A DNA stretch of 64,000 nucleotides from Gallionellaceae bacterium (lineage in GTDB: Bacteria; Pseudomonadota; Gammaproteobacteria; Burkholderiales; Thiobacillaceae), in the NCBI GenBank assembly GCA_028714875.1, contig JAQTLN010000003.1:124001-188000 (forward strand), in the 5' to 3' direction. The position numbers and the translations under genes were made by a program. Below are positions 15,220 through 56,394 of this stretch, piece by piece; the stretch's first letter is position 1; each line of letters opens with the position of its first letter. Below the pieces are notes generated by a model. That model was not told the DNA's origin, searched no databases, and saw nothing but the letters and a program-made list of their open reading frames with translations.

Positions 15220-15220
15220 G

Positions 15221-15279
15221 GTAGCGCCGGCACCCCCGCCGGCGTTTTTTCAAGACGCCGGCAAGGATGCCGGCGCTAC
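15221..15279. repeat. GTAGCGCCGGC-family palindromic repeat
   Basis: gtagcgccggcacccccgcc at the left is answered by gccggcaaggatgccggcgctac at the right, an imperfect inverted repeat of about 59 bp with nested GCCGGC hairpins. Related copies lie at 24106, 26811, 44888, 46953 and 63174, with fragments at 37926-37953, 48095-48116, 50993-51008 and 56229-56257. Confidence 0.85.
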
Positions 15280-15284
15280 AAGCC

Positions 15285-23002: not shown

Positions 23003-24109
23003 ATGTCTGAAATGGCTGCTTCGCCGCTGCTCACCCGGGTCAGTCCGGCGTTGCCCGTGAACTGGTATTTCGATCTCAAGATTTACGATCTGGAGATGCA
23101 ACTCCTGTTCAAGAACGGGGCGAATTACGTCGGCCATGAACTCATGGCGCCCAATCAGGGCGACTTCCATGTGCTCGACTGGCTGCATGACGGCGGCAAG
23201 ATGCTGGTGAACAACCCCAACGGCGTGGAACTCCTGTCCAACGTCTGCCGACATCGCCAGGCACAAATGCTGAAAGGGCGCGGCAATGCCCAGAACATCG
23301 TCTGTCCGTTTCATCGCTGGACTTACGACACCCAGGGCCAGCTCCTCGGCGCGCCGCATTTCCCGGAAAACCCCTGTCTGCATCTCAACAAGAAGACGCT
23401 GGTCAACTGGAAGGGTCTGCAATTCGCCGGGCCGCGCGATATCCACACAGACCTTGCCAAGCTGGGTGTGGCGGCCGACATGGATTTCAGCGGCTTCGTC
23501 TACGACAGCACCCAGATCACCGAATACAAGTTCAACTGGAAGACCTTCATCGAGGTCTATCTGGAGGACTACCACGTCGTGCCCTATCACCCCGGCCTGG
23601 GCCAGTTCGTCAATTGCGACGAACTGAAATGGGAGTATGGCGAGATGTATTCGGTGCAGACCGTGGGTATCAACAAACACCTGGCGCAGCCCGGTAGCGC
23701 CGTCTACAACCGCTGGCACCAGCAGGTGAAGCGCTACCGCGACGGCCGCGACCCCGCGCACGGCGCCATCTGGCTCACCTATTACCCGGCGTTAATGGTC
23801 GAGTGGTACCCGCACACCCTGGTGGTGAGCAACATCATCCCCACCGGCGTCGACTCCTGCCTCAACGTCGTCGAGTTCTACTATCCGGAAGACATCGCCC
23901 TGTTCGAGCGCGAATTCGTGGAAGCCGAACAGGCCGCCTACCGGGAAACCGCCATCGAGGACGACGACATCTGCTACGGCATGCACAAGGGCCGCAAGGC
24001 GCTGTACGAGCAGGGCATCAGCCAGGAAGGCCCCTACCAGTCGCCGATGGAGGACGGCATGGTGCACTTCCACGAATGGTTGCGGCGCATGATCGAGCCG
24101 CATTTGTAG
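23003..24109 (+). CDS. Rieske-type aromatic ring-hydroxylating oxygenase, alpha subunit
   Basis: A 368-aa non-heme iron oxygenase. The Rieske cluster ligands are CRHRQAQMLKG..., then CPFHRW (C-x-H ... C-x2-H). The catalytic domain has the Fe(II) facial triad region IEVYLEDYHVVPYHPGLGQF (D-x2-H-x3-4-H) and a distal acidic residue expected near the C-terminus. A standalone alpha subunit with no beta subunit or reductase nearby suggests the choline/carnitine-monooxygenase-like or sterol group rather than a benzoate dioxygenase. Its TAG stop is part of the GTAGC that begins the next palindromic repeat. Confidence 0.88.
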   Translation: MSEMAASPLLTRVSPALPVNWYFDLKIYDLEMQLLFKNGANYVGHELMAPNQGDFHVLDWLHDGGKMLVNNPNGVELLSNVCRHRQAQMLKGRGNAQNIVCPFHRWTYDTQGQLLGAPHFPENPCLHLNKKTLVNWKGLQFAGPRDIHTDLAKLGVAADMDFSGFVYDSTQITEYKFNWKTFIEVYLEDYHVVPYHPGLGQFVNCDELKWEYGEMYSVQTVGINKHLAQPGSAVYNRWHQQVKRYRDGRDPAHGAIWLTYYPALMVEWYPHTLVVSNIIPTGVDSCLNVVEFYYPEDIALFEREFVEAEQAAYRETAIEDDDICYGMHKGRKALYEQGISQEGPYQSPMEDGMVHFHEWLRRMIEPHL

Positions 24110-24159
24110 CGCCGGCATCCTTGCCGGCGTCTCAAGGGCCGGCTGGAAGCCGGCACTAC
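24106..24159. repeat. GTAGCGCCGGC-family palindromic repeat
   Basis: gtagcgccggcatccttgcc ... ggctggaagccggcactac, an inverted repeat of 54 bp. It overlaps the last codon and stop of the Rieske oxygenase. The rest of 24160-24299 is an untranslated, more AT-rich leader of the hydrogenase operon (TTGTATATCGACC, TATGTAAATGGATATAAC). It probably contains the promoter, but no certain -35/-10 or -24/-12 pair was found. Confidence 0.85.
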
Positions 24160-24299
24160 AAAATTGCCTGTCGAGCCCTCGACAACCTGCCGAGCCGCCA
24201 ACGGTACTGATTGACCATTCAAGAATCGACCCATTTCGCCGTTAATCCAGCTACGGTGGTTGTATATCGACCGTACTATGTAAATGGATATAACCCGAG

Positions 24300-25241
24300 A
24301 TGGCAACACTTTTCTGGATTCAGACCGGAGCCTGCGGTGGCGATTCCCTCGCCATCCTGAGCGCCGAGGCGCCCAGCCTGGAAGGGCTGCTGGCGGAGCA
24401 TGGGGTGGAGCTACTCTGGCACCCCTCCCTGTCACATCAGCCCACGCGTCATTACGACCGCCTCATCGAGCGCATCCTGGTCGGCGAACAGGCGCTGGAC
24501 ATCCTGTGCGTCGAGGGCAGCATCGTTACCGCGCCGCGTGGCACCGGGCTGTATGACAGCTATCACGGCCGCGCCAAGATGGATTGGGTGCGCGACCTGG
24601 CGCAACACGCCGGCGCGGTGGTGGCGATGGGTACCTGCGCCGCGTTTGGTGGGGTCCACGCGGCGCCCCCCAATCCCAGTGACTGCATCGGCCTGCAATT
24701 CGACAAGGCCGCGCCCGGTGGGCTGTTCCCGCCGGACTGGCGTTCGCGCCGCGATCTGCCGGTGATCAACGTGGCCGGTTGCCCGGCGCATCCTCACGCC
24801 ATGACCCAGACCCTGGCCTGGCTCGCCACCGGCCTGCCGCTGCGCCTGGATGCCCTGAACCGGCCGTCGGCGCATTTCAGCACCGTGGTGCACCAGGGCT
24901 GCACGCGCAACGAGTACCACGAGTACGACGTCGAAGAGACCGAACTGGGCGGCCGCGCCTGCCTGTTCTTCAATCTGGGCTGCCAGGGCCCCATGACCCA
25001 GGCGGTATGCAACAGCGACCTGTGGAACGGCGTCAGCAGCAAGACCCGCGCCGGTGTGCCCTGCTTCGGCTGCACGTCGCCCACCTTCCCGCGCGAGGAA
25101 GACCTGTTCCGCACCGAAAAGGTCGGCGAAGTGCCTCTGCGCCTGCCCCTGGGGGTCGAGCGTCCGCGCTACATGGCTTACAAGAACCTGGCCCGCGCCG
25201 CGGCGCCACAACGCGTAAAAGATAAGAAGATGGAGTCCTGA
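24300..25241 (+). CDS. hupS: [NiFe]-hydrogenase small subunit, group 2 (cyanobacterial-type / sensory)
   Basis: A 313-aa electron-transfer subunit without Tat signal, so cytoplasmic. It closely follows cyanobacterial HupS: IQTGACGGDSLAILSAEAPS, ELLWHPSL, LDILCVEGS, GTCAAFGG, NVAGCPAHP, HQGCTRN, NLGCQGPMT, NGVSSKTRAGVPCFGC. The cysteines for medial and distal clusters are present. In the proximal-cluster motif the second Cys of CxxC is Asp15 (C12-G-G-D15); cyanobacterial HupS has Asn here. It is followed by the large subunit with a 1-bp overlap (TGATG). A group 2a uptake enzyme and a group 2c sensor are both compatible; the GGDEF-EAL partner favours 2c. Confidence 0.9.
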   Translation: MATLFWIQTGACGGDSLAILSAEAPSLEGLLAEHGVELLWHPSLSHQPTRHYDRLIERILVGEQALDILCVEGSIVTAPRGTGLYDSYHGRAKMDWVRDLAQHAGAVVAMGTCAAFGGVHAAPPNPSDCIGLQFDKAAPGGLFPPDWRSRRDLPVINVAGCPAHPHAMTQTLAWLATGLPLRLDALNRPSAHFSTVVHQGCTRNEYHEYDVEETELGGRACLFFNLGCQGPMTQAVCNSDLWNGVSSKTRAGVPCFGCTSPTFPREEDLFRTEKVGEVPLRLPLGVERPRYMAYKNLARAAAPQRVKDKKMES

Positions 25242-26758
25242 TGGCCCGCGTCGAACTCAGCATCGACCTCAACCGGGTGGAAGGCGACCTGGAAATCGGC
25301 GTCACGCTGGAAGACGGCGTGGTCGTGGATGCCCGCACCATCGGCACCCTCTATCGTGGTTTCGAGCAGATTCTGGTGGGCCGCGCGCCGCGCGATGCGA
25401 TGGTGATCACCCCGCGCGTCTGCGGCATCTGCGGCACCGCCCACCTCTACGCGGCGGTGCTGGCTCTGGAATATGCATGGAACCTGCCGGTGCCGGCCAA
25501 CGCCACGCGCATCCGCAACCTCTGCCTGATGGCCGAGGGCATCCAGAACGACCTGCGCCAGACCTTCCTGTTCTTCGCGCCGGATTTCTGCAACCCGCGT
25601 TATAGCGAACATCCCCTGTTCGCCGAGTTGATGGCCGCGTTCGAGCCGTTCAAGGGCAGCCTGCACCGCGAGACCTTGCGGGTGACGCGGCAGGTGGTGG
25701 AGATCGTCGCCCACTTCGGCGGGCAGTGGCCGCATTCCTCCTACATGCTGCCGGGTGGCGTGGTGACGCCGCCGGATGAGCGCCGGGTGCTGGCCTGTCG
25801 CGCGGTATTGGACGAGGTGCGCGCCTGGTATGAGCGCCGCATCATCGGCGCGCCGCTTGATGAATGGCTGGCGCTGGATAGCGCCGAGGCCTTGTTCACC
25901 TGGCTGGATGCGCCGGAACGCGCCGCAGCCGCGCTGGGCCTGATGACCCGTTTCGCCCGCTCGCTGGACATGCACCACCTCGGCGCCGGCACCCCGCACA
26001 TGATCAGTTTCGGCTCCTGGTGCGACCCGCAAAGTTCAGGCTCGCACCTGCTGCCGGCCGGCTTCTATGATGGCGACAGCGGGGAAGTCCAGCCGCTGGA
26101 TCAGGCCCTGGTCAACGAACATGTGCGCCATTCCTGGTTTCGCCCCTATGCCGGCGGTCGCCACCCCTGGCAGGGCGAGACTGTGCCCGACTTCCAGCCC
26201 GGCAGCGACCGTTACACCTGGGCCAAGGCGCCGCGCTATGGCGACCGGGTGGTGCAGACCGGCCCCTTGGCGGAATTGCTGATTGCTGGCGACCCGCTCA
26301 TTACCAGCCTGCACGCGGCCGAGGGCGGCAACGCCTGGCTGCGACAGTTCGCCCGCGTGCGCCGCGCCGGGGTGGAACTCGTGCGGGCACGGCAGATGCT
26401 CGACGAACTGGCCGCCAACCTCGATGCGCCGCACTACCTGGCGCCGCCACCAGGGAGCGAGCGCGACGGCCAGGGTTACGGCCTGGTCATGGCCGCGCGT
26501 GGCGCCCTTGGCCACTGGGTGAAGATCAAGGATGGCGTGGTGGAGAAATATCAAATCGTCACCCCCACCGCCTGGAACGCCTCGCCACGCGACAGTTCGG
26601 GTGAGATGGGGCATTGGGAACGCAGCCTGCTCGGCGTCAAGGTGAGTGACCCGGATGACCCGGTGGAAATCGGCCATTTGATCCGTTCCCACGACCCCTG
26701 CCTGGTCTGTACCGTGCACATGCTGGGCAGCGGCAAGAAGTTGCGCTTCGCGCCGTGA
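25241..26758 (+). CDS. hupL: [NiFe]-hydrogenase large (catalytic) subunit, group 2
   Basis: A 505-aa subunit that binds the NiFe(CN)2CO site. The N-terminal motif is TPRVCGICGTAHLYAAV and the C-terminal motif DPCLVCTVH, giving the four Cys ligands (C-x2-C at each end). After the final His there is a 12-residue tail (MLGSGKKLRFAP), which a maturation endopeptidase should remove; a protease gene lies next in the operon. Classical H2 sensors (HoxC/HupV) lack such a tail, so this protein is processed like a catalytic enzyme. It pairs with the upstream small subunit. Confidence 0.93.
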   Translation: MARVELSIDLNRVEGDLEIGVTLEDGVVVDARTIGTLYRGFEQILVGRAPRDAMVITPRVCGICGTAHLYAAVLALEYAWNLPVPANATRIRNLCLMAEGIQNDLRQTFLFFAPDFCNPRYSEHPLFAELMAAFEPFKGSLHRETLRVTRQVVEIVAHFGGQWPHSSYMLPGGVVTPPDERRVLACRAVLDEVRAWYERRIIGAPLDEWLALDSAEALFTWLDAPERAAAALGLMTRFARSLDMHHLGAGTPHMISFGSWCDPQSSGSHLLPAGFYDGDSGEVQPLDQALVNEHVRHSWFRPYAGGRHPWQGETVPDFQPGSDRYTWAKAPRYGDRVVQTGPLAELLIAGDPLITSLHAAEGGNAWLRQFARVRRAGVELVRARQMLDELAANLDAPHYLAPPPGSERDGQGYGLVMAARGALGHWVKIKDGVVEKYQIVTPTAWNASPRDSSGEMGHWERSLLGVKVSDPDDPVEIGHLIRSHDPCLVCTVHMLGSGKKLRFAP

Positions 26759-26810
26759 TCGTTCATCCATGAATGCCACGCTGATGCCCCCCGATCCGGT
26801 AGCGGTTTAT

Positions 26811-26877
26811 GTAGCGCCGGCATTCCTGCCGGCTCTTCCGGGCAAGCCAAGGACGCCGGCAGGGATGCCGGCGCTAC
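26811..26877. repeat. GTAGCGCCGGC-family palindrome inside the hydrogenase operon
   Basis: gtagcgccggcattcctgcc ... gccggcagggatgccggcgctac forms a 67-bp inverted repeat in the 153-bp gap between the large-subunit gene and the protease gene. It would fold into a strong hairpin in the mRNA, stabilising the hupSL part or reducing read-through into the downstream genes. Confidence 0.88.
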
Positions 26878-26911
26878 ATCCCCCGCACGCTCAGGCAAGG
26901 ACACCAGATTC

Positions 26912-27361
26912 ATGCGTCATGTGATCGGCTTCGGCAATGACCTGCACGGCGATGACGGCTTCGGTGTCGCCGTCTGCCGGCGCCTCGCCGAACTGCCATT
27001 GCCGGAGGATGTGCGGGTGTTCGCGGCGGGCACGCGCGGACTCGACGCACTGGCTCTGTTCGAGGACTGCGGTGAGGCCATCGTGGTCGACGCCGGTGAA
27101 CCAGCGGGGCAGCCTGGCCGCCTCAGCTTTCCCGCGCCGGAAACGCTCACCGAGGACTCCAGCCTGCCCGGTCACGGCGCCGGTGTCGGCTACCTGCTGC
27201 GCGCCCTGGCGGCGTTGGGACAGACCCCTCGCCTGCGCATCGTTACGGCCGAGGCGGCCGCGTTGACGCCATTCCACACGGAACTTTCACCGGAAATGCG
27301 GCGGGCGGTGGAGGAAACCGTGCTGTTGCTGCGCGACTGGCTGGGAGTGCATGGTGTCTGA
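26912..27361 (+). CDS. Hydrogenase maturation endopeptidase (HybD/HupD family)
   Basis: A 149-aa M52 protease that trims the C-terminal tail of the NiFe large subunit after nickel insertion. The nickel-sensing residues of HybD can be matched: the acidic residue in GFGNDLHGDDGFGVAV, the Asp in AIVVDAGE and the His in SLPGHGAGVGYLL. It is encoded directly after hupL, beyond a repeat, and its last 11 nt overlap the start of the PAS-GGDEF-EAL gene. The overlap ties the signalling gene to hydrogenase maturation. Confidence 0.9.
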   Translation: MRHVIGFGNDLHGDDGFGVAVCRRLAELPLPEDVRVFAAGTRGLDALALFEDCGEAIVVDAGEPAGQPGRLSFPAPETLTEDSSLPGHGAGVGYLLRALAALGQTPRLRIVTAEAAALTPFHTELSPEMRRAVEETVLLLRDWLGVHGV

Positions 27362-29996
27362 CGAACTGCAACGCCTGCGCACCGAGGTCGAGGCCCTGCG
27401 CCTGGCCAATACCGCGCTGGAAACGCAGATGCTGGCCGGCGCCGAGCAGAGCGATGCCATGCTGCGCGAAGTGGAGGTTCAACGTAACGCACTGCGGAGC
27501 GCGCACCAAGTGCAACGTACCCTGAGCGGCTTCGTGCAACGGGTCATGGACACCGCCGGCAGCCTGGTCATCGTGCTCGGGCCGGATGGCCGGGTGCGAC
27601 TGGCCAATCGCCGCTGTGAGGAAGCACTGGGCGAAGCGGCGCGTGATCTGGAAGGCCGGGTGCTGGACGAGTTGTTGCCGGTCGATGAACGGATGGTCTT
27701 GGCGAGCAGTCTGCCGCCTTTGCCCTGGGAAGTAGTCTCGCCGCTGTTCGAGACGGTGCGGCGTCAGGGCAATTATTCCGCCGAACACCGCATGGCCGGC
27801 TGCAACGGCCACTACCGGCATTACCTGTTCGACGCCGCCATGTTGCACGACCCCCAGGGCAAGGAAGAGGGCGCGGTGGTCAACGCCACCGACATCACCC
27901 TGCTGAAACGACAGGAATCCCGTCTGCGCCGCAGCGAATCCCTGCTCAAGGAGGCGCAGCGGCTTGCCCTCATGGGCAGTTGGGAACTCGACCTCGTCGG
28001 CAACAAATTGTCCTGGTCCGATGAAGTGTTTCGCATCTTCGAGATCGACCCGAAACGCTTCGGCGCCTCTTATGATGCCTTCCTGGCGGCCATCCACCCG
28101 GAGGATCGGGCGCGGGTGAACCAGGCCTATACGGAATCCCTGCGCACGCGCCAGGAATACGACCTCGTCCACCGCCTGCTGTTCGCCGAGGGCCGCGTGA
28201 AATGGGTGCACGAACGTTGCGCCACGCACTACGCCGACGACGGCAGTCCCCTGCGTTCCGTCGGCACGGTGCAGGATGTCACCGCGCAGCGCGAGGCTGA
28301 CGAAAGTCTGCGCCTGGCCGCCACCGTGTTCGACAGCAGCCTCAACGGCATTCTCATCACGTCGCCGAAGGGCAACATCCTTCGCGTCAACCAGGCTTTC
28401 AGCGAGATCACCGGCTATAGCGCCGCGGAAGCGGTGGGGCAGACCCCGCGCTTGCTCAAATCGGAACAGCATGACACGGCGTTCTACCAGGCAATGTGGG
28501 CGTCGCTTGAGCAAACGGGAAGTTGGCAAGGCGAAATCTGGGACCGTCACCGTGACGGCCATGTGATTCCGATGTGGCAAAGCATCACAGCGGTGCGCGA
28601 CGCGCAGGGCGAGGTCAGCCACTACATCGGCATCTTTTTCGACATCACCGAGCAGAAACGGGCCGCCGCGCACATCGACCGACTCGCGCATTACGACGCC
28701 CTCACCGATTTGCCCAACCGCCTGTTGTTCACTGAGCGCTGCACCCATGCCCTGGAGCACGCGCGCCGCAAGAGCAGCCAGGTGGCCCTGATGTTCCTCG
28801 ACCTGGATCATTTCAAACACGTCAACGACAGCCTCGGCCATCCGGTGGGTGACGCCCTGTTGCAGGCCGTGGCACAGCGCCTGAAACAGCAGTTGCGCGA
28901 GGAAGACACCGTGGCGCGCCTGGGGGGGGACGAATTCGTCGTCATCCTGGAACAAGTGGCCTCATCGGCCGATGCCGAATGGGTGGCGCGCAAACTGCTG
29001 GAGTCGTTCGCCGAGCCCTTCCCGGTGCGCGGCCACGACCTCTCGCTGGGGCTTTCCATCGGCATCAGCATCTACCCGGAGGACGGCGAGGACGTCACCA
29101 ACCTGGTCAAGAACGCGGACATTGCCCTGTATCGGGCCAAGGAACATGGGCGCGGCAATTTCCAGTTCTTCGAGGCCCACCTCACCCAGGTCGCCGCCGA
29201 ACGCCTGTATATCGAAGGCGAGTTGCGCCAGGCCATCCGGCGCGAGGAATTGACCGCTTTCTATCAACCGCAGCACACCCTGTCCGATGGTCGCCTGGTC
29301 GGCGCGGAAGCCCTGTTGCGCTGGAACCACCCCGAACTTGGCCAGGTGCCGCCGGATCGCTTCATTCCCATCGCCGAGGATTCCGGCCTCATCGTCTCCA
29401 TCGGCGAATGGATACTCGCCACCGCCTGCCGCCAGGCCAAGGCCTGGATAGACAGCGGGCACCCGCTGGAACGCATGGCGGTCAACCTCTCAGGGGTACA
29501 GATCCAGCGCGGCGACATCGTCGCCACCGTCAGCCGCGTGCTCACCGAAACCGGCCTGCCGCCCGAAACGCTGGAACTGGAAATCACCGAGACCTACATC
29601 ATGCGTCAGGCGGAACGCGACACCCGCGTCCTGGAAGACCTACGCGACCTCGGCGTGAAACTCGCCATCGATGACTTCGGCACCGGCCAGTCCTCGCTCG
29701 GCTACCTCAAGCGCCTGCCGGTGGACAAACTCAAGATCGACCGCTCCTTCGTCATGGACATCCCCCAGGACGCCGACGACGCCGCCATCACCCGCGCCAT
29801 CGTCGCCCTCGGCCACAGCCTGCGCCTCAAGGTGCTGGCGGAAGGCGTGGAAACCCCGGAACAGGAAGCCTTCCTCAAGGAGCTCGGCTGCGACGGCGTG
29901 CAGGGGTTCTACTACAGCAAACCAGTGGATGCCGCGGCATTCGAGGCGTATCGGGACAGCGCACTATCACACCCTGACGGCCAGGCCAGGCAATGA
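27351..29996 (+). CDS. PAS-PAS-PAS-GGDEF-EAL protein linked to the hydrogenase
   Basis: An 881-aa soluble protein: N-terminal coiled coil (about 1-50, LQRLRTEVEALRLANTALE), three PAS domains (about 55-175, 195-315, 320-435; the third has ILRVNQAFSEITGYSAAEAVG), GGDEF (about 445-610, RLGGDEFVV, I-site REED) and EAL (about 620-875, AEALLRW, LEITETYIM, DDFGTGQSSL, EGVETPEQEAFL). Both active sites look intact. With no TM segment it can meet the cytoplasmic hydrogenase directly. The ATG at 27351 has a GGGAG ribosome-binding site within the protease gene. It should convert an H2/redox signal into c-di-GMP change; that link is inferred from the operon. Confidence 0.92.
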   Translation: MVSDELQRLRTEVEALRLANTALETQMLAGAEQSDAMLREVEVQRNALRSAHQVQRTLSGFVQRVMDTAGSLVIVLGPDGRVRLANRRCEEALGEAARDLEGRVLDELLPVDERMVLASSLPPLPWEVVSPLFETVRRQGNYSAEHRMAGCNGHYRHYLFDAAMLHDPQGKEEGAVVNATDITLLKRQESRLRRSESLLKEAQRLALMGSWELDLVGNKLSWSDEVFRIFEIDPKRFGASYDAFLAAIHPEDRARVNQAYTESLRTRQEYDLVHRLLFAEGRVKWVHERCATHYADDGSPLRSVGTVQDVTAQREADESLRLAATVFDSSLNGILITSPKGNILRVNQAFSEITGYSAAEAVGQTPRLLKSEQHDTAFYQAMWASLEQTGSWQGEIWDRHRDGHVIPMWQSITAVRDAQGEVSHYIGIFFDITEQKRAAAHIDRLAHYDALTDLPNRLLFTERCTHALEHARRKSSQVALMFLDLDHFKHVNDSLGHPVGDALLQAVAQRLKQQLREEDTVARLGGDEFVVILEQVASSADAEWVARKLLESFAEPFPVRGHDLSLGLSIGISIYPEDGEDVTNLVKNADIALYRAKEHGRGNFQFFEAHLTQVAAERLYIEGELRQAIRREELTAFYQPQHTLSDGRLVGAEALLRWNHPELGQVPPDRFIPIAEDSGLIVSIGEWILATACRQAKAWIDSGHPLERMAVNLSGVQIQRGDIVATVSRVLTETGLPPETLELEITETYIMRQAERDTRVLEDLRDLGVKLAIDDFGTGQSSLGYLKRLPVDKLKIDRSFVMDIPQDADDAAITRAIVALGHSLRLKVLAEGVETPEQEAFLKELGCDGVQGFYYSKPVDAAAFEAYRDSALSHPDGQARQ

Positions 29997-31992: not shown

Positions 31993-32083
31993 GGCAGCCA
32001 CTCGATCGTGCCGCGATTATTACCCTTGTGCGGGCCGGGACGTCCGCGCTCCGCGCAAGGCTTAGGCCCGCTAGCGATACGCC

Positions 32084-32353
32084 CTAAACGCCGTAGCTGA
32101 TTTCTTCCGCCAGGCAGCCGATGGGTTCGGCCAGGGTGCCGTCGGGGCCGGTTTCAAAGCGGACCAGGTAGATGTCCTGTTTCGGATCGGCTTCGGCGTG
32201 GCCGACATTGACGACTACACCGCGGGTGCCGGCGCTGGCGAGCAGTTCGTTCGCGGCGACTCCGGGAATGCCGCTTTCGCCGGTTTCCTCCAGCGGGTCG
32301 TTGTGAATGTCGATGCTGGCGATGACCATATCGCCCAGGTTGAATTGCTCCAT
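32084..32353 (-). CDS. NifZ-like protein
   Basis: An 89-aa protein resembling the NifZ domain: LGDMVIASIDIHNDPLEETG, LLASAGTRGVVVNVGHAE and the strand DIYLVRFETG. NifZ proteins help P-cluster maturation of the MoFe protein. It is the last gene of the nif accessory operon, 1 nt after the GNAT gene. The match is by pattern only, so a different NifZ/HesB-neighbour family is possible. Confidence 0.65.
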   Translation of the reverse strand: MEQFNLGDMVIASIDIHNDPLEETGESGIPGVAANELLASAGTRGVVVNVGHAEADPKQDIYLVRFETGPDGTLAEPIGCLAEEISYGV

Positions 32354-32354
32354 T

Positions 32355-32816
32355 TCATTCTCCAGGTTGCAGGCGTAAACAAATCATCCGGGTGGTTTGC
32401 CAGCCCAGGTGTTGATAAAAATCCAGGGCGGCTTCGTTCTCGCGATCCGCGAGTAATTGCAGGCGACTGAGGCCGCGCCGCGTTGCCCAGGCAACCACGG
32501 CATCGAGCAGCAGGCGGCCGATGCCGCGGCCGCGCAGGTCGGAACTGACCACCATGTCTTCGACCCAGGCTACCGGGCCGCCTTCGGCGGTGGAAATCAC
32601 GACCTGCGCGGTGCACATGCCGATCACGCGCCCGCTCTGTTCCGCTACCCATAGCGCCGCCGAGGCATCGCGCGCCAGCAGCAGGCTGAGGCCGCGTCGG
32701 ACTTTGGCGGGGACGAAGGGGAAGTCCGGTTCGACGGCGAACAGCCGGCCGATGAGTTGGGTCATGGCATCGAGATCGGCCTCGGTCGCGGCGCGGATGC
32801 GCGGCTTGCCAGACAT
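32355..32816 (-). CDS. GNAT family N-acetyltransferase
   Basis: A 153-aa GNAT started at the ATG at 32816, preceded by GGAGGCGGCG. It shows RIRAATEADLDAMTQLI (N-terminal strand), VAWVEDMVVSSDLRGRGIGRLLLDAVVAWA (acetyl-CoA pyrophosphate loop R-G-x-G-I-G) and ALDFYQHLGWQ. Its location inside the nif accessory operon, between unknown nif-linked genes and a NifZ-like gene, is notable. The substrate is unknown. Confidence 0.88.
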   Translation of the reverse strand: MSGKPRIRAATEADLDAMTQLIGRLFAVEPDFPFVPAKVRRGLSLLLARDASAALWVAEQSGRVIGMCTAQVVISTAEGGPVAWVEDMVVSSDLRGRGIGRLLLDAVVAWATRRGLSRLQLLADRENEAALDFYQHLGWQTTRMICLRLQPGE

Positions 32817-32835
32817 CGCCGCCTCCGCCATGGAC

Positions 32836-33264
32836 TTATCCCATCAGTACGGTGTAGGCCAGGCGCAGCAAGTCCAGTTCGGCCGGCGCGCAGCCACGCG
32901 CTTCGGTGATGGCGATGAACTTGCCGCCCAGGCTCGCGGCGGCCTCGAAGGGCGGGTCGATGCTGGTGAAGGTGGCCAGGCGTACCTGGATCGGGCCTTC
33001 CGGTGTATCGACGCTGGCGCTGAATTCCGCTTCCAGCGCGAGGCCGCCGGCATCCAGGCCGAGTTGCGACTCGGCGGCGCGTAGATAGAGGGCGGGATGT
33101 GCCTCGACCCGGCTGGAAGAAACCTTTTCCAGGACCGATGCCAGGGCCGGCAGTGCCTGGAACGCGGTGAGGCCATGCGGAAAGCGCAGGAATCGCACGC
33201 GCGCGCTGGTCTTCTGTTTGTGCGCCAGTATCAAGCGCATGTTGGCGGGGAAGGGGGTGTTCAT
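32836..33264 (-). CDS. Hypothetical protein of the nif accessory operon
   Basis: A 142-aa protein from the ATG at 33264, which overlaps the upstream stop (ATGA). It has no membrane segment and no cysteine motif; strands such as RLILAHKQKTSARVRFLRF and IQVRLATFTSIDPPFEAAA dominate. It ends GCAPAELDLLRLAYTVLMG. The family is not recognised with certainty. Strict coupling to nif genes suggests a role in nitrogenase assembly or protection. Confidence 0.65.
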   Translation of the reverse strand: MNTPFPANMRLILAHKQKTSARVRFLRFPHGLTAFQALPALASVLEKVSSSRVEAHPALYLRAAESQLGLDAGGLALEAEFSASVDTPEGPIQVRLATFTSIDPPFEAAASLGGKFIAITEARGCAPAELDLLRLAYTVLMG

Positions 33265-33620
33265 ACCGCCGCCAGCAATCTCGGTTCCGCCTTCACCACG
33301 CCGTCGCGGCCCCATACCGTGATGGCTTCGATGAACCAGCGCGGTTTGCGCGGGTGCAAGACCAGGAGGTCGAACTCGGCGTAGTAGCTGCCGTCGCTGT
33401 TGATGATCAGGCTGCCACGCTTCTGCGCGCGCGCGTCGCGCCAGACACCTTCATAGCCGGGCAGGCCGTTGGATGGGTCGGTCACGCGGGTGAATACGGC
33501 TTCTGCGAGATGGATCGCCGGCGCCTCATTTGGGGCATAGCGCCGGGCTTCCTCGCCGAGTACCTGACACAGCTTGACACCGAGTTCGACCAGTTCGTCC
33601 GGCAGGGCGGTATTGGCCAT
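33261..33620 (-). CDS. Hypothetical protein of the nif accessory operon
   Basis: A 119-aa protein. The N-terminus is helical (PDELVELGVKLCQVLGEEARRY), followed by a beta-rich part (KRGSLIINSDGSYYAEFDLLVLHP) and an end with WFIEAITVWGRDGVVKAEPRL. It starts within the stop of the 2Fe-2S ferredoxin gene (TAATG) and overlaps the next gene by 4 bp. I do not recognise the family. Its context is purely nif accessory. Confidence 0.65.
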   Translation of the reverse strand: MANTALPDELVELGVKLCQVLGEEARRYAPNEAPAIHLAEAVFTRVTDPSNGLPGYEGVWRDARAQKRGSLIINSDGSYYAEFDLLVLHPRKPRWFIEAITVWGRDGVVKAEPRLLAAV

Positions 33621-33943
33621 TACCAGAGGTCTGCCGGAACCTTCAGGCGTTCGATCGGCGTGCCGCCCAGCAGGTGCTGGTCGAAGATGGCGCTGACGTC
33701 GTCTTTGGTGACGGAGCCGTACATGATGCCTTCCGGATAGACCAGCACGTTGGTGCCGGTGCCGCACGGGCCGAGGCAGCCGGTGGCGGTGATGGCCACC
33801 TTGTCGAAGCACTGGCGCTGCTGGAACTGGAACAGGAATTCGTCCATGACTTCACGGCAGCCTTTTTCCGCGCAGGAACCGCGCGGATGGCCGGGAGGAC
33901 GGGCTTGGGAGCAGATGAAGACGTGTTTGGGTGGACGTGGCAT
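33620..33943 (-). CDS. Thioredoxin-like [2Fe-2S] ferredoxin
   Basis: A 107-aa protein of the 2FeCpFd/Shethna type: HVFICSQARPPGHPRGSC, then further on ATGCLGPCGTGTNVLVYPEG, giving the C...C...CxxxC ligand set of the thioredoxin-like ferredoxins. It ends QHLLGGTPIERLKVP, typical of the family. It probably carries electrons for, or protects, nitrogenase. It follows fdxB by 37 nt. Confidence 0.85.
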   Translation of the reverse strand: MPRPPKHVFICSQARPPGHPRGSCAEKGCREVMDEFLFQFQQRQCFDKVAITATGCLGPCGTGTNVLVYPEGIMYGSVTKDDVSAIFDQHLLGGTPIERLKVPADLW

Positions 33944-33980
33944 GGTGGTTATGTCGAAGGTTGTGTGTGGGATCGAGGCT

Positions 33981-34271
33981 TTATGCGGCAACGGGCAGGG
34001 CTTCGTGGGTGTGGCAGCCTTTCGGGCAGACGCGGGCGCAGGAGCCACAGCCGATGCAGTCGAGCATGTTCTTCAGTGACATCACGCTCATCTGGTCGTC
34101 GTCGAGGTCTTCGTCCAGTTCGTCTTCGTCGCGTTCCACCAGCTCGAACACGTCGCGCGGACAGACTTTGTAGCAGCGGCCGCAGCCGATGCAGGTCTTC
34201 TGGTCGAGGGCGGTGACGAAGGTGGGGTGGTAGGGCGTGCCGCCCCGGGTGAGTGCGCTATAGGCGTCCAT
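33981..34271 (-). CDS. fdxB: nif-specific ferredoxin III (2x[4Fe-4S])
   Basis: A 96-aa ferredoxin. Two CxxCxxCxxxCP-type motifs are present: CIGCGRCYKVCPRDVFEL and CIGCGSCARVCPKGC, separated by an acidic insert (DEDELDEDLDDDQ). N-terminus MDAYSALTRGGTPYHPTFV fits FdxB of diazotrophs. It donates electrons in nitrogen fixation or FeMo-co assembly. The start lies 2 nt after the stop of the DUF683-like gene. Confidence 0.9.
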   Translation of the reverse strand: MDAYSALTRGGTPYHPTFVTALDQKTCIGCGRCYKVCPRDVFELVERDEDELDEDLDDDQMSVMSLKNMLDCIGCGSCARVCPKGCHTHEALPVAA

Positions 34272-34273
34272 GA

Positions 34274-34483
34274 TCAGCCTTTCTGGGCGGCCGCCAGACG
34301 GGCATTGGCATCGGCCCAGGCCTGGCAGGCATCGTAGGTGGATTGGGCGATACCTGGAATTTCCAGGTAGCCGGCGGGGAGTTTGTCTTCCACCAGGTCG
34401 TGCAACTGGGAGGCCCACTCGCTGGCCTGGCGTTTGAGTTTTTTGACCTCGCGGTCGAGTGTTTTCAGTTCGTCGTCAGTCAT
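34274..34483 (-). CDS. CCE_0567-type (DUF683) nif accessory protein
   Basis: A 69-aa all-helical protein from the ATG at 34483: DELKTLDREVKKLKRQASEWASQLHDLVEDKLPAGY, then ACQAWADANARLAA. The pattern and the position next to DUF269 and fdxB match the small CCE_0567 family of nif clusters, whose cyanobacterial member forms a helical bundle with metal. A GGGGGG-type repeat lies upstream, between it and the DUF269 gene. Confidence 0.82.
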   Translation of the reverse strand: MTDDELKTLDREVKKLKRQASEWASQLHDLVEDKLPAGYLEIPGIAQSTYDACQAWADANARLAAAQKG

Positions 34484-34538
34484 TTGCTTGCTCCGCAAGG
34501 GATATGGAGTGAGTTGAAACGGCTGCGTGCCTGGTGGA

Positions 34539-34640
34539 CCCCCCCTTTGCAAAAGGGGGGCAGGGGGATTTAGTGACGTTCGTAATCGTGCAACCGTTGG
34601 AGAAATCCCCCCCGCACCCCCCTTTTGCAAAGGGGGGCGC
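34539..34640. repeat. Complete CCCCCCTTT/AAAGGGGGG dispersed element inside the nif operon
   Basis: ccccccctttgcaaaagggggg is followed by GGGGGATTTAGTGACGTT, a centre of about 20 nt, then AAATCCCCCCCGC and ccccccttttgcaaaggggg. It is an inverted pair of hairpins. The centre motif CAACCGTTGGAGAAATCCC recurs inverted in the copy at 46147-46249. Confidence 0.85.
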
Positions 34641-34677
34641 GGGGATGCGTGTCAGGGTGTCTCACACCGTTGCCCGT

Positions 34678-35133
34678 TTACAGACCCGCTACTTCCGGGT
34701 ACTTGCCGATGATTTCCAGCGCCACCGAGAGGTATTTGTCGGCTTCATCCTTCATCTTCGAGAAGGTGTCGTAGCCGTAGCGGTGGATGTCGCGCACGGT
34801 GCGGTCCATCACCACCAGCTTGCCGACGGTGATCAGGGCGCGGCCGAAGCCTTCGTGGGTGATGTTGACCATGGGCACGGCCATCAGCCCGCATTCCTTC
34901 TCGATCAAGACCGAGATGCCGTTGTAGAAGGCTTTCACGCGCGACAGGGTTTGTTCGTCCGGGTCGCCGATCACCGGGATCTGGCGGCGCATTTCCTTGG
35001 TGACGATGTAGGGTTCGAGGATGCGTTCCACAGTCCAGCCGTCGTAGGTGCCGTAGCTGTCGATGGCGCGCATCTGCTTGACCATTTCCTTGATGAACTC
35101 GGTCTCCATGATGGGGTCGTGTGTTTCGCTCAT
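34678..35133 (-). CDS. NifX-associated protein (DUF269)
   Basis: A 151-aa DUF269 protein: FIKEMVKQMRAIDSYGTYDGW, LEPYIVTKEMRRQIPVIGDPD, HEGFGRALITVGKLVVMDRTVRDIHRYGY cut into parts, ending LEIIGKYPEVAGL. The family is found almost only beside nifX and probably helps cofactor trafficking. Its ATG overlaps the stop of the rseC-like gene (ATGA). Confidence 0.92.
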   Translation of the reverse strand: MSETHDPIMETEFIKEMVKQMRAIDSYGTYDGWTVERILEPYIVTKEMRRQIPVIGDPDEQTLSRVKAFYNGISVLIEKECGLMAVPMVNITHEGFGRALITVGKLVVMDRTVRDIHRYGYDTFSKMKDEADKYLSVALEIIGKYPEVAGL

Positions 35134-35585
35134 GTGGTTCTCCTGATATCGATTGGTGAATGGGGTGCGGAAAGCGGGTGTGCGTGTATGTGCGGCGTGG
35201 GCGCGAGAAAGCGGGCGGCAACCAGGCCGGCGATGAACCCGGCTATGGCGCCGAGCGCGGCGGCGATGTCGGCATAAGCACCACCCGCGCCGCTCACGTC
35301 GGCCAGGACCGCGCCGACCACGGCGAGCAAGGCGGGCAGAAGGTAGGCAAACAGGCCGGCGCGCAGGAGTTCGCTTTCATCCACGCAGACCAGCAGCTCA
35401 TCGCCCATCCGAGCACCCGCTTGCTGGAGCGGCATGGCGGCGCGGTGGCGCGAAAGGTATTTGCCCAGGCCGGAAATGCCGCAACTGGATTGCGACTGGC
35501 AGGCGTTACATCCGGATTGTTCACTGGAGGAAACCCAGGCCATGCCGGCGGCGGTGGAAACCACACGAACGCGCGCTTCGATCAT
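35130..35585 (-). CDS. rseC: RseC/SoxR-reducing-system-like membrane protein
   Basis: A 151-aa protein: an N-terminal cytoplasmic part with a cysteine cluster (GCNACQSQSSCG), then two TM segments (LLRAGLFAYLLPALLAVVGAVLAD and IAAALGAIAGFIAGLVAARFL). This is the RseC layout. RseC is known with Rnf complexes, which feed electrons to nitrogenase in many diazotrophs; no rnf genes are in view. It is inserted between nifX and DUF269 with 4-bp overlaps at both ends. Confidence 0.85.
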   Translation of the reverse strand: MIEARVRVVSTAAGMAWVSSSEQSGCNACQSQSSCGISGLGKYLSRHRAAMPLQQAGARMGDELLVCVDESELLRAGLFAYLLPALLAVVGAVLADVSGAGGAYADIAAALGAIAGFIAGLVAARFLAPTPHIHAHPLSAPHSPIDIRRTT

Positions 35586-36049
35586 TCCGACCACCCCTCT
35601 GCTTCCATCGTCGCGAAACGGTCGTCGTCCTTGGGCTTGACGTGCTTGACCAGCCAGGCCGGCGGTGAATTCTTCAGGCTCTGATTGAGCCCGCACAGCA
35701 GTTCGTCGACCGGCGTGCCTTCCTCGACTTTCATGGGTTGGATGCCGGAGGCCAGCAACTGCTTGATCGCCGAGGCGCCGACCGCGTTGCAGTACACCGC
35801 GACACAGCCTTCCAGCAGGGCGATCTTGCCGGCCAGCTTGCCTTCGTGGCCGTCCATCACGATGTCGCTGTCGTGGAATTCGGCCACTTCGATCAGACGG
35901 GCGTCATCTTCAGCCAACTGGTAGATGCAGAAGGCCTCGGCGGCGCCGAAGTGCTGGTCCACCACGCGGCGATCCGTGCTGGCAAAGGCGATTTTCACGC
36001 TCATGGCGGCAACCTCTTCAGTGGAGTGGACGAGTTTCAGATGGCGCAT
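35582..36049 (-). CDS. nifX: FeMo-cofactor carrier NifX
   Basis: A 155-aa protein; NifX binds NifB-co and VK-cluster during FeMo-co synthesis. The core is [22 protein letters not shown] and [14 protein letters not shown], with the C-terminal helix [22 protein letters not shown]. The N-terminal [12 protein letters not shown] aligns with the corresponding leader of A. vinelandii NifX, supporting the start at 36049. An internal ATG at 36004 with AGAGG is the alternative. The first 32 nt overlap the extended end of nifN. Confidence 0.92.
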
Positions 36050-37586
36050 CGTGGATTCCCATGGCTGAGGCGCCCCCCTTTTCCATAGGGGGGCTGGGGG
36101 GGATTCCCGAGGCCGTCGCCCAGGAAAACGTCGCTAAATCCCCCTTTCCCCTTTGGGAAAGGGGGAGGTCACCCCCTCTGGCACTTTCTGTCGCATCTCC
36201 AGTTAACGGGAAAATAACCTTTGCCAAAGGGGGGGTGACACCGCTGCCGGCATAGATGGAACGGTAGGCGGCGACGTCATGATGGCCGTGCTCGACGATC
36301 AGGTTGGCGAGGTCGAACAGGGTCTGCCGGGTACCGCGATAGCCCACCCACAGCTTCTGATAGCCGCCGATCAGGTCGTATTGCGGGAACCCGGCGCGCA
36401 GCAGTGGCACCCCGAGACGGCGCGCCGAATCGACCGCGTGCGAATTGCAGATCAGCAGATCGACTCCGTGTTCCAGCGCGCTGGTTTCCAGGTCTTCCAG
36501 ATCGCCCAGCTTGACCTGGGCGGTGGGCACGCTTTCCAGAATGTGCGCCTTGGCGGGCGCCACGGCGGCGGTGACCGCGCAACCCATGCTGGTCACCAGT
36601 TGCGCCATCGCGTAGAGCAGGTCCGGGTCGGCGGCGATGGCGACGCGCGCGAATCCGAGCATGAAATGGGTATCCACCATCGCGTCCTGTAATTGCGCGC
36701 GCTGGCGTTCAATCTTTTCCGGCACCGGCTGGCCGCTGATCTGTGCCAGCGCGACGATGAAGGCATCCACCGCTTCCAATCCCATCAGAGTGTCGAAGCG
36801 GGTGTCGGGCACGCCGGTGCGTTTATTCAGCAGGTCGGCGGCGGGGTTGAGCGAGGCGCCGATCACCAGGGTGGCCGCCGCTTCGCCCAGGGTCGCGATT
36901 TCCGCGACCGGCGTGCCGCCCACCGTCACCGGGCTGGATTCCTGCTCGGTCAAATGGCCGTCGAGCGAGTCCGACAGGTCCGGCAGAACCACCGGACGCA
37001 AGCCGAACATTTCGATCAATTCCTTGATGTGTTCCAGGTCGCCCGGCGTCAGCATCGAGCCGGCGAGCACATTCACCTGCTTCTTGCGGCGGCCGACACA
37101 GGTGCTTTCCGGCACCAGCACGTCGATCATCGCCTTCACCGCCAGCGCATAGCCCGATTCCAGGCAGCCGGCGAAATCCGGCGTATTCACCGCCACCACA
37201 GGAATGCCGTCGAACTCGGGATGTTCAATGCGGAATTTGCGCACCAGGCCGTGAATGTCCGTGCCCTGAGTTTCCGACAGCCCCGTGGTCGGCAGACCGA
37301 TCAAGGCCGGCTTGCTTTTCTCGGCGACGGCCAGCAAGCCCTGGATCACGTTGTCGTCGGCGTTCATCACGGTGGAAACCTGATCCATCGCCGTCGTCTG
37401 CAAGGGAATCGGCTCGCGGAAATGGCGCACGAAAAACACTTTTCCGAACGCCGTGCAGCCTTGCGAGCCATGCAACATCGGCACCGCCCGGTTGATCCCC
37501 AGGAAGGCCAGCGACGCGCCCACCGGCTGACTGACTTTCAGCGGCCTGACGGCAAGCGCCTTGTTGCGTTTGATGATCTCGGTCAT
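36018..37586 (-). CDS. nifN: Nitrogenase cofactor scaffold NifN, with repeat-derived C-terminal tail
   Basis: A 522-aa NifN from the ATG at 37586: [19 protein letters not shown] aligns with the A. vinelandii NifN start. Cofactor scaffold features follow: [70 protein letters not shown]. The usual end ([17 protein letters not shown]) is at about residue 455. After it come about 65 residues encoded by a dispersed repeat ([27 protein letters not shown]), and the frame then ends inside nifX. nifE, normally just upstream, is absent. Confidence 0.93.
36072..36172. repeat. CCCCCCTTT/AAAGGGGGG dispersed element within the 3' end of nifN
   Basis: ccccccttttccatagggggg, GGGGGGATTCCC, centre with AACGTCGCTAAATCCCCC, then tttcccctttgggaaagggg. 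Same family as 34539-34640 and 46147-46249. A further CCAAAGGGGGG fragment follows at 36222-36235. The element has no stop in the nifN frame. Confidence 0.88.
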
Positions 37587-44887: not shown

Positions 44888-44954
44888 GTAGCGCCGGCAT
44901 CTTGCCGGCGTCTCTTGGTTTGACGGGATGAGCCGGCAAGGATGCCGGCGCTAC
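44888..44954. repeat. GTAGCGCCGGC-family palindromic repeat
   Basis: gtagcgccggcatcttgcc ... gccggcaaggatgccggcgctac, an inverted repeat of 67 bp filling the 76-bp gap between the FIST gene end and the DUF1841 start. Confidence 0.88.
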
Positions 44955-44956
44955 AG

Positions 44957-56158: not shown

Positions 56159-56394
56159 CGGCTACGCCCCGAACGGGCTCAAGAAACACATTGCAACCAA
56201 CTGATTCGAAATAAAGTTTCCGCGCGCGTGTAGCGCCGGCCTTCCAGCCGGCGCTAGAGGTGCGCATCGGCCGTGCTTCTTCGGCTCGATTTTCGGCGGA
56301 TGGCCGATTACTTCGCTAACTGCCGCCGGCAACTTCCCCGCGTGCATCCATGCCGCGCGGGCAACAGGAGTCCTTCCATTTTTTTCGCCGATTG

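Follow-up and report, generated by a model that had tools for sequence, protein, structure and literature searches.

The window analysed here is a 64,000-nucleotide (nt) stretch of contig JAQTLN010000003.1 from a Gallionellaceae bacterium. It carries a cassette of four same-direction genes, read from open reading frames (ORFs): hupS and hupL, which encode the small and large subunits of a [NiFe]-hydrogenase; a gene for a maturation protease; and a gene for a transducer made of an N-terminal helix, three PAS domains, a GGDEF domain and an EAL domain (Table 1). An initial annotation of this DNA had given the same gene order, and the ORFs and Pfam confirm it, with Oxidored_q6 and NiFe_hyd_SSU_C found in HupS, NiFeSe_Hases in HupL, HycI in the protease, and several PAS models, GGDEF and EAL in the transducer. 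No NCBIfam equivalog model listed for the cassette proteins reached its cut-off; the best model for the transducer was DibA, at 746.6 bits, below its cut-off of 980. DibA/DosP-type proteins have the same domain order, but the hydrogenase-linked N-terminal helix sets the window transducer apart from them. hupS and hupL share one base (TGATG), HupL ends in DPCLVCTVH and a 12-residue tail, and no signal peptide was seen by eye at the start of HupS. The protease and transducer genes overlap by 11 nt, as first annotated; this overlap is not general, as relatives show 4-nt overlaps or gaps, but the gene order is.

The hydrogenase fits [NiFe] group 2c, outside groups 2a and 2b, as judged from its large-subunit phylogeny and residues. 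Relatives were drawn from genome contigs (best 80 of 153), plasmids (60 listed of 132 records) and sampled genomes; loci are given L numbers below, and genomes G numbers. The tree was built from 67 large subunits out of 160 rows that included duplicates, with group 1 reduced to 11 chosen rows and 2a represented by five plasmid-borne Huc-like rows and no cyanobacterial one; duplicates, L017, L025 and the later additions L134 and L139-L144 were left out. The window belongs to a 27-row 2c clade (support 100/98), inside a sub-clade of 16 rows (100/99). The five Huc-like 2a rows are sister to the 2c clade (97/90), and the 24 2b rows and 11 group 1 rows stand apart from it, with the caveats that L026 is a long branch and that the program warned of the 2b and group 1 long branches meeting. 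We use the name 2c on three grounds: where the window falls in the tree, its linked cyclase and its L2 motif. The initial annotation had raised group 2c as an idea, and the HupL phylogeny, now run, puts the protein in a clade that fits that group and is distinct from 2a and 2b, and not firmly in 2a. Placement in group 2a was rejected on both tree and residues, and placement in group 2b on the tail, the L2 motif and the Gln at L1.

Several residues separate the 2c rows from their relatives. The fourth proximal-cluster position of HupS is Asp (30) or Glu (3) in all 33 2c rows, Asn in 5/5 2a rows, and Cys in 17/17 2b and 2/2 group 1 rows, and the L1 column of HupL is His in 32 of 33 2c rows and Gln in 17/17 2b rows. 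We take HoxC I62 and F110, both checked in the HoxC sequence, to be the gas-channel positions described in work on HoxC. The matching columns hold Ile/Phe in the window, in 13 of the 15 other members of its sub-clade (L121 and L019 have Ile/Met) and in 17/17 2b rows, while 2a rows have Ile with Leu or Ile, and group 1 Val/Leu. Since in the other 17 2c rows Ile is joined by Met (11 rows), Leu or Phe (2 rows each), or Gln or Tyr (1 row each), the Ile/Phe pair is no mark of 2c as a whole. In the available parts of the two papers concerned, the fourth coordinating residues of Huc are taken as one sign of [3Fe-4S] clusters (PMC10017518), and for the regulatory hydrogenase HoxBC a narrow gas channel is reported along with three [4Fe-4S] clusters. 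The fourth-ligand residue suggests that 2c may have a proximal cluster of its own.

The same comparison bears on whether HupSL is instead a 2a-like metabolic uptake enzyme, feeding quinone or another acceptor, with the GGDEF-EAL protein merely co-expressed, for example to couple H2 use to biofilm formation. Huc, a group 2a enzyme, is the closest solved structure (E about 1e-100) and, like the window, lacks the fourth Cys at the proximal cluster; in place of Huc's Asn and distal-cluster Gln, however, the window has Asp15 and, as in 2c, His. Two tyrosines of Huc were compared: the Tyr301 column remains Tyr in 31 of 33 2c rows, whereas Tyr229, which according to the available part of the Huc paper helps to hold menaquinone (PMC10017518), is Phe in 30 of 33, the window included (L016 has Tyr, L144 Glu and L019 a gap). 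The window thus has neither of the 2a marks, Asn at the proximal cluster and Tyr229. Although the tail and protease are retained, as in 2a rows, the clade is separate from 2a, and outside genus pairs the flanks of 13 cassettes share no further gene except two weak generic matches. We therefore regard a metabolic uptake role as quite unlikely.

The tail and its protease go together in 2c. An adjoining protease gene is present in 24 of 26 2c rows with a tail longer than 8 residues (exceptions L123 and L141) and in 0/6 rows with a tail of 0-8 residues; L014, which lies at a contig end, was left unjudged among the 33. Fisher's test gives 3e-5, which is not a strict probability, given the kinship among the rows and a cut at 8 that was set with the lengths already in view. 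A 2c hydrogenase usually has both a tail and its own protease, and tail loss accompanies protease loss. The initial annotation had contrasted the cleavable tail with the HoxC/HupV sensors, and the contrast stands, as 24/24 distinct 2b large subunits lack a tail. The 2b systems HoxBC-HoxJ and HupUV-HupT resemble the window in combining a soluble H2 sensor with a transducer that has an N-terminal helix and PAS, and in their Ile/Phe gas-channel pair. They differ from it in having no tail, DPCMVCT(V/A)H at L2, Gln in L1, a four-Cys proximal motif and a histidine kinase.

Table 1. Features of the hydrogenase-transducer cassette and its surroundings (window positions).
Feature	Positions	Strand	Basis
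Conserved upstream block (window, L009, L010, L011), probable hupS promoter region	24200..24299	+	alignment of 4 upstream regions
hupS, small subunit, 313 aa	24300..25241	+	ORF, Pfam; proximal-cluster motif C12-G-G-D15 (Asp, usually Cys)
hupL, large subunit, 505 aa	25241..26758	+	ORF, Pfam; L1 RVCGICGTAH, L2 SHDPCLVCTVH
hupL columns matching HoxC I62 / F110: Ile / Phe	within 25241..26758	+	alignment
Codons of 12-residue HupL C-terminal tail MLGSGKKLRFAP	26720..26755	+	ORF, large-subunit comparison
REPIN-like inverted repeat, hupL-protease junction	26810..26878	.	fold, repeat scan
Hydrogenase maturation protease, HycI/HupD superfamily, 149 aa	26912..27361	+	ORF, Pfam, NCBIfam
Helix-PAS-PAS-PAS-GGDEF-EAL transducer, 881 aa	27351..29996	+	ORF, Pfam, AlphaFold model
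N-terminal helix, residues 1-68, proposed HupSL docking element	27351..27554	+	AlphaFold model, helix HMM
PAS1, residues 71-181	27561..27893	+	AlphaFold model
PAS2, residues 207-309	27969..28277	+	Pfam, AlphaFold model
PAS3, residues 326-437	28326..28661	+	Pfam
GGDEF domain, residues 446-602	28686..29156	+	Pfam; RLGGDEF and I-site RxxD present
EAL domain, residues 624-858	29220..29924	+	Pfam; catalytic residues checked are there

The complete hupS-hupL-protease-GGDEF-EAL order was found in the window and at 12 other loci (L009, L010, L011, L012, L015, L016, L018, L020, L089, L119, L120 and L121), and the hosts include Methylomonas, Methylocystis, Methylosinus, Sedimenticola and an Ideonella plasmid. 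Some loci are cut short: the contig of L025 begins inside hupL and carries the end of that gene, followed by protease and transducer; L013 holds hupS, hupL, the protease and the beginning of the transducer gene; L014 and L017 break off too soon. An exception is L019, with hupSL and protease but no transducer downstream. A flanking ORF is common to only 8 of the 78 pairs among the window and the 12 loci, and six of these are within-genus pairs; the remaining two pairs are single matches, of 42% and 30%, to common families. The cassette thus recurs in largely unrelated flanks, a pattern not expected of chance neighbours. By counts at strict cut-offs, each including the centre genome, the 2c type is rare: 3/369 genomes of the class, 7/398 of the phylum, and 8/297 in the phylum of the Desulfobulbaceae genome that carries L024. 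Among 61 near relatives, five carry it, all of one genus and including the window's own genome (rows 92-100% identical); the other matches in these relatives have 37-41% identity and end in the 2b motif.

What the 2c partner proteins have in common is their beginning, a helical stretch of about 50-65 residues. An AlphaFold model of the first 330 residues of the window transducer gives a helix at 2-68 followed by two PAS folds, with mean pLDDT 86.9 and pTM 0.50, and with the end of the helix (51-70) at only 63-65. At <1e-10 among 6117 ORFs (duplicates included), hidden Markov models (HMMs) of this helix matched 2c partners only, with the GGDEF-EAL type accounting for 15 distinct loci and the other type for 17; most of these loci are training rows, the independent ones being L013 for the first type and L134 and L139-L143 for the second. 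Among Desulfobacterota partners fetched later and outside the training, 6/7 were recognised. Common descent of the window helix with the HupT/HoxJ helix was not shown (E 0.025, controls 0.28 and 0.21); an HMM of the HupT helix matches L120 at 9e-6, but that model extends into the start of PAS.

The PAS domains are less constant. Pfam found no PAS match in the partners of L021, L022, L140 and L141, and in the truncated L026 the GGDEF domain begins soon after the helix. The N-terminal helix is nearly constant in 2c partners, and PAS can be absent, which makes it doubtful that PAS is the input. This also bears on the possibility that the PAS protein senses another cue, such as redox, O2, or a flavin or haem ligand, and that the hydrogenase is a mere neighbour or target. 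PAS domains often bind cofactors, and the best rows of the structure search include PAS structures of LOV, DosP, FixL, NifL and MmoS, although searches of the PDB made no cofactor discernible for PAS1. The transducer gene nevertheless follows HupSL and protease in unrelated flanks (L019 excepted), and part of the family keeps the helix without a detected PAS, so that we find a separate cue improbable. In L121 the transducer gene (L121:7616-10603) encodes a Rieske [2Fe-2S] domain (PF00355, 7.7e-8) ahead of the helix and PAS-GGDEF-EAL; this would suggest that the signal consists of electrons transferred from HupSL.

GGDEF-EAL partners occur at 14 distinct loci (the window, the 12 cassette loci and L025), and GGDEF without EAL at L122 and L125; the truncated L026 also has GGDEF. 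Both catalytic sites of the window transducer appear intact, as initially annotated: the GGDEF motif, the I-site RxxD and the checked EAL residues are all there. Among the 14 transducers the GGDEF motif is intact in every one, the I-site in 13 (L016 lacks the Asp) and the EAL residues in 13. The Sedimenticola transducer (L012:7984-10620) keeps its GGDEF motif, but the Asn, two Glu and one Asp are gone from its EAL catalytic residues. Because GGDEF is always intact, EAL residues are lost in one case and some partners are GGDEF-only, the comparison suggests that synthesis of cyclic di-GMP (c-di-GMP) is the essential output. Elsewhere in the same genome, an ORF upstream of a group 1 hydrogenase (L129:4370-6745) is like the window's PAS-GGDEF-EAL protein (44% over its residues 244-867).

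Histidine kinases are the partners, by Pfam, at L021, L022, L024, L123, L124, L127, L139, L140, L141, L142 and L144, and by motif or close likeness at L126, L134 and L143; the partner of L023, which is cut off, was included as a probable kinase. Within 8.5 kb of 8 of these 15 (probable) kinase loci there is a GGDEF or HD-GYP gene, compared with 0/13 2b loci and 4/38 group 1 loci (Fisher 0.0025 and 0.0019; 0.0075 and 0.012 with close kin collapsed), a count favoured by domain HMMs that were partly built from proteins of the same loci. Pfam confirms five of the eight (L022, L024, L123, L139 and L144), and L126, L127 and L141 are HMM-only; examples are receiver-GGDEF proteins in L024 and L139 and receiver-HD-GYP proteins in L022 and L144. 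Closeness of this kind is no proof of a common pathway. Near the kinase-linked locus L021, a receiver protein (L021:11673-13664) has a nucleotide cyclase domain of class III, a hint that the output there is a different cyclic nucleotide. We suggest, tentatively and as a possibility we would not yet bet on, that 2c is a plug-in H2 receptor, in which an Asp-cluster HupSL sits on a short helix joined to GGDEF-EAL, GGDEF or a histidine kinase, with PAS optional and the signal often ending at c-di-GMP even via a phosphorelay.

The initial annotation did not notice the 153 nt that lie between hupL and the protease gene. This gap contains a 69-nt inverted repeat, and as a whole it folds at a free energy (dG) of -79.5 with a z of -7.1. 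A search with the 24-mer pattern of the repeat gave 61 exact matches across the genome, two inside this hairpin, and none in a backward control; the repeat is therefore a dispersed REPIN-like element. Seven matches at <=3 mismatches occur in the window (0.02 expected), with sites at 15220-15280, 24105-24128, 26810-26878, 44932-44955 and 56229-56252. The hairpin was rejected as an intrinsic terminator, as it belongs to this dispersed family and the scan found no such site in the gap (3 sites in 6.5 kb scanned, 4.0 expected, none of them in the gap). Co-expression, which the initial annotation had read from the overlap and strand continuity, is an inference qualified by the strong hairpin between hupL and the protease gene. 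The hairpin could end or trim the hupSL message, so that protease and GGDEF-EAL protein are expressed apart, an arrangement that would be compatible with H2 sensing by the cassette. The fold energy of the gap is in keeping with two transcripts, as is the different repeat that L009, a very close relative, carries at the same junction; the site scan found no terminator-like or sigma-70-like site in the gap, and hardly any space separates the genes in Methylomonas, Sedimenticola and Ideonella. We consider two transcripts unlikely. Upstream of hupS, the same scan found no sigma-70-type consensus site. A Rieske oxygenase-like ORF (by eye) lies directly upstream, at 23003-24109; it was rejected as part of the unit, as such a gene adjoins hupS only in the window and L009 among the cassettes compared.

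The window's genome also has a HupUV-HupT sensor set (L128), along with two group 1 hydrogenases, and may thus have two H2 sensors at work in parallel. In four draft genomes, G514 (93% complete), G548, G810 and G812, the 2c gene is the only PF00374 match; such cells would sense H2 while having no [NiFe] hydrogenase to control. The initial annotation had suggested nitrogenase as the source of H2. As a general rule this is not supported: NifH is above cut-off in only 15 of 31 2c genomes, this one included (a fragment in G818 is below it), and in only one of five same-genus carriers, namely this genome. ORFs at 32000-36100 on the minus strand, a few kb downstream of the cassette, look nitrogen-fixation-like by eye (ferredoxin-like, NifX-like); nifH of this genome is on another contig.

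Taken together, we consider it probable that the locus is a self-contained H2-sensing module fitting [NiFe] group 2c, in which HupSL signals to the GGDEF-EAL transducer. The adjoining protease would remove the HupL tail and so mature HupSL, which would stay in the cytoplasm. HupSL would then bind H2, with the Ile/Phe pair, as in HoxC, presumably screening the site from O2. Its redox or conformational state could pass to the transducer through contact with the N-terminal helix, and the GGDEF-EAL part would change c-di-GMP in response.

Several observations weigh against this interpretation. No row of the tree has an official HydDB label, and the window's L2 motif, SHDPCLVCTVH, is one letter off the published 2c consensus SFDxCLVCTVH, which the kinase/GGDEF branch follows in having SFD; in the available part of the paper that gives the consensus, SHDaCLVCTVH from Thiomargarita was judged most consistent with 2c (PMC4853749). 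A strong hairpin separates hupL from the protease gene. Many 2c relatives carry kinases, not cyclases, and for seven of the 15 (probable) kinase loci no c-di-GMP gene was seen up to 8.5 kb away; two of the seven sit on contigs <5 kb. The L144 partner escapes the helix HMM, and the two helix types align over 41 N-terminal columns at E 9e-4 and probability 23 (reversed controls 0.12 and 0.18), so that their kinship is suggestive only. Mean identity is 55.5% in the helix, compared with 63.9% and 62.8% in the catalytic domains (9 of 12 GGDEF-EAL rows, three near-copies dropped); because the helix is the less conserved, conservation alone does not mark it as a docking element. Finally, in the passages available from the open-access literature on 2c or on H2 sensing with c-di-GMP, we found no 2c experiment, and no H2, binding or c-di-GMP assay of 2c.

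Group 2c and its proposed link to c-di-GMP are already known, and the locus is a further member of that class. In the part of the HydDB paper available, Table 1 gives group 2c, listed as putative since 2016, as diguanylate cyclase-linked (putative) with its role undetermined (PMC5037454). Like the window, the entry describes a cytosolic group 2 pair beside a GGDEF gene, with H2 sensing via c-di-GMP proposed, and the link from H2 to c-di-GMP that the initial annotation had drawn is thus supported as a possibility already in print there. A 2025 Methylobacter paper, as far as its available part goes, lists 2c genes. Beyond the HydDB entry, the present comparison adds the ligand signature, the tail-protease link, the helix and the kinase-linked branch, features that we did not meet in the literature passages available.

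H2 is both a trace fuel and a signal in syntrophy, and c-di-GMP commonly decides between settling and swimming. If the interpretation is true, a direct receptor from H2 to c-di-GMP would let bacteria choose their habitat by H2. The dedicated protease, the short candidate docking helix and the relatives in named strains (Methylomonas, Methylocystis, Methylosinus, Ideonella and Sedimenticola) make the question of H2 and c-di-GMP directly testable.

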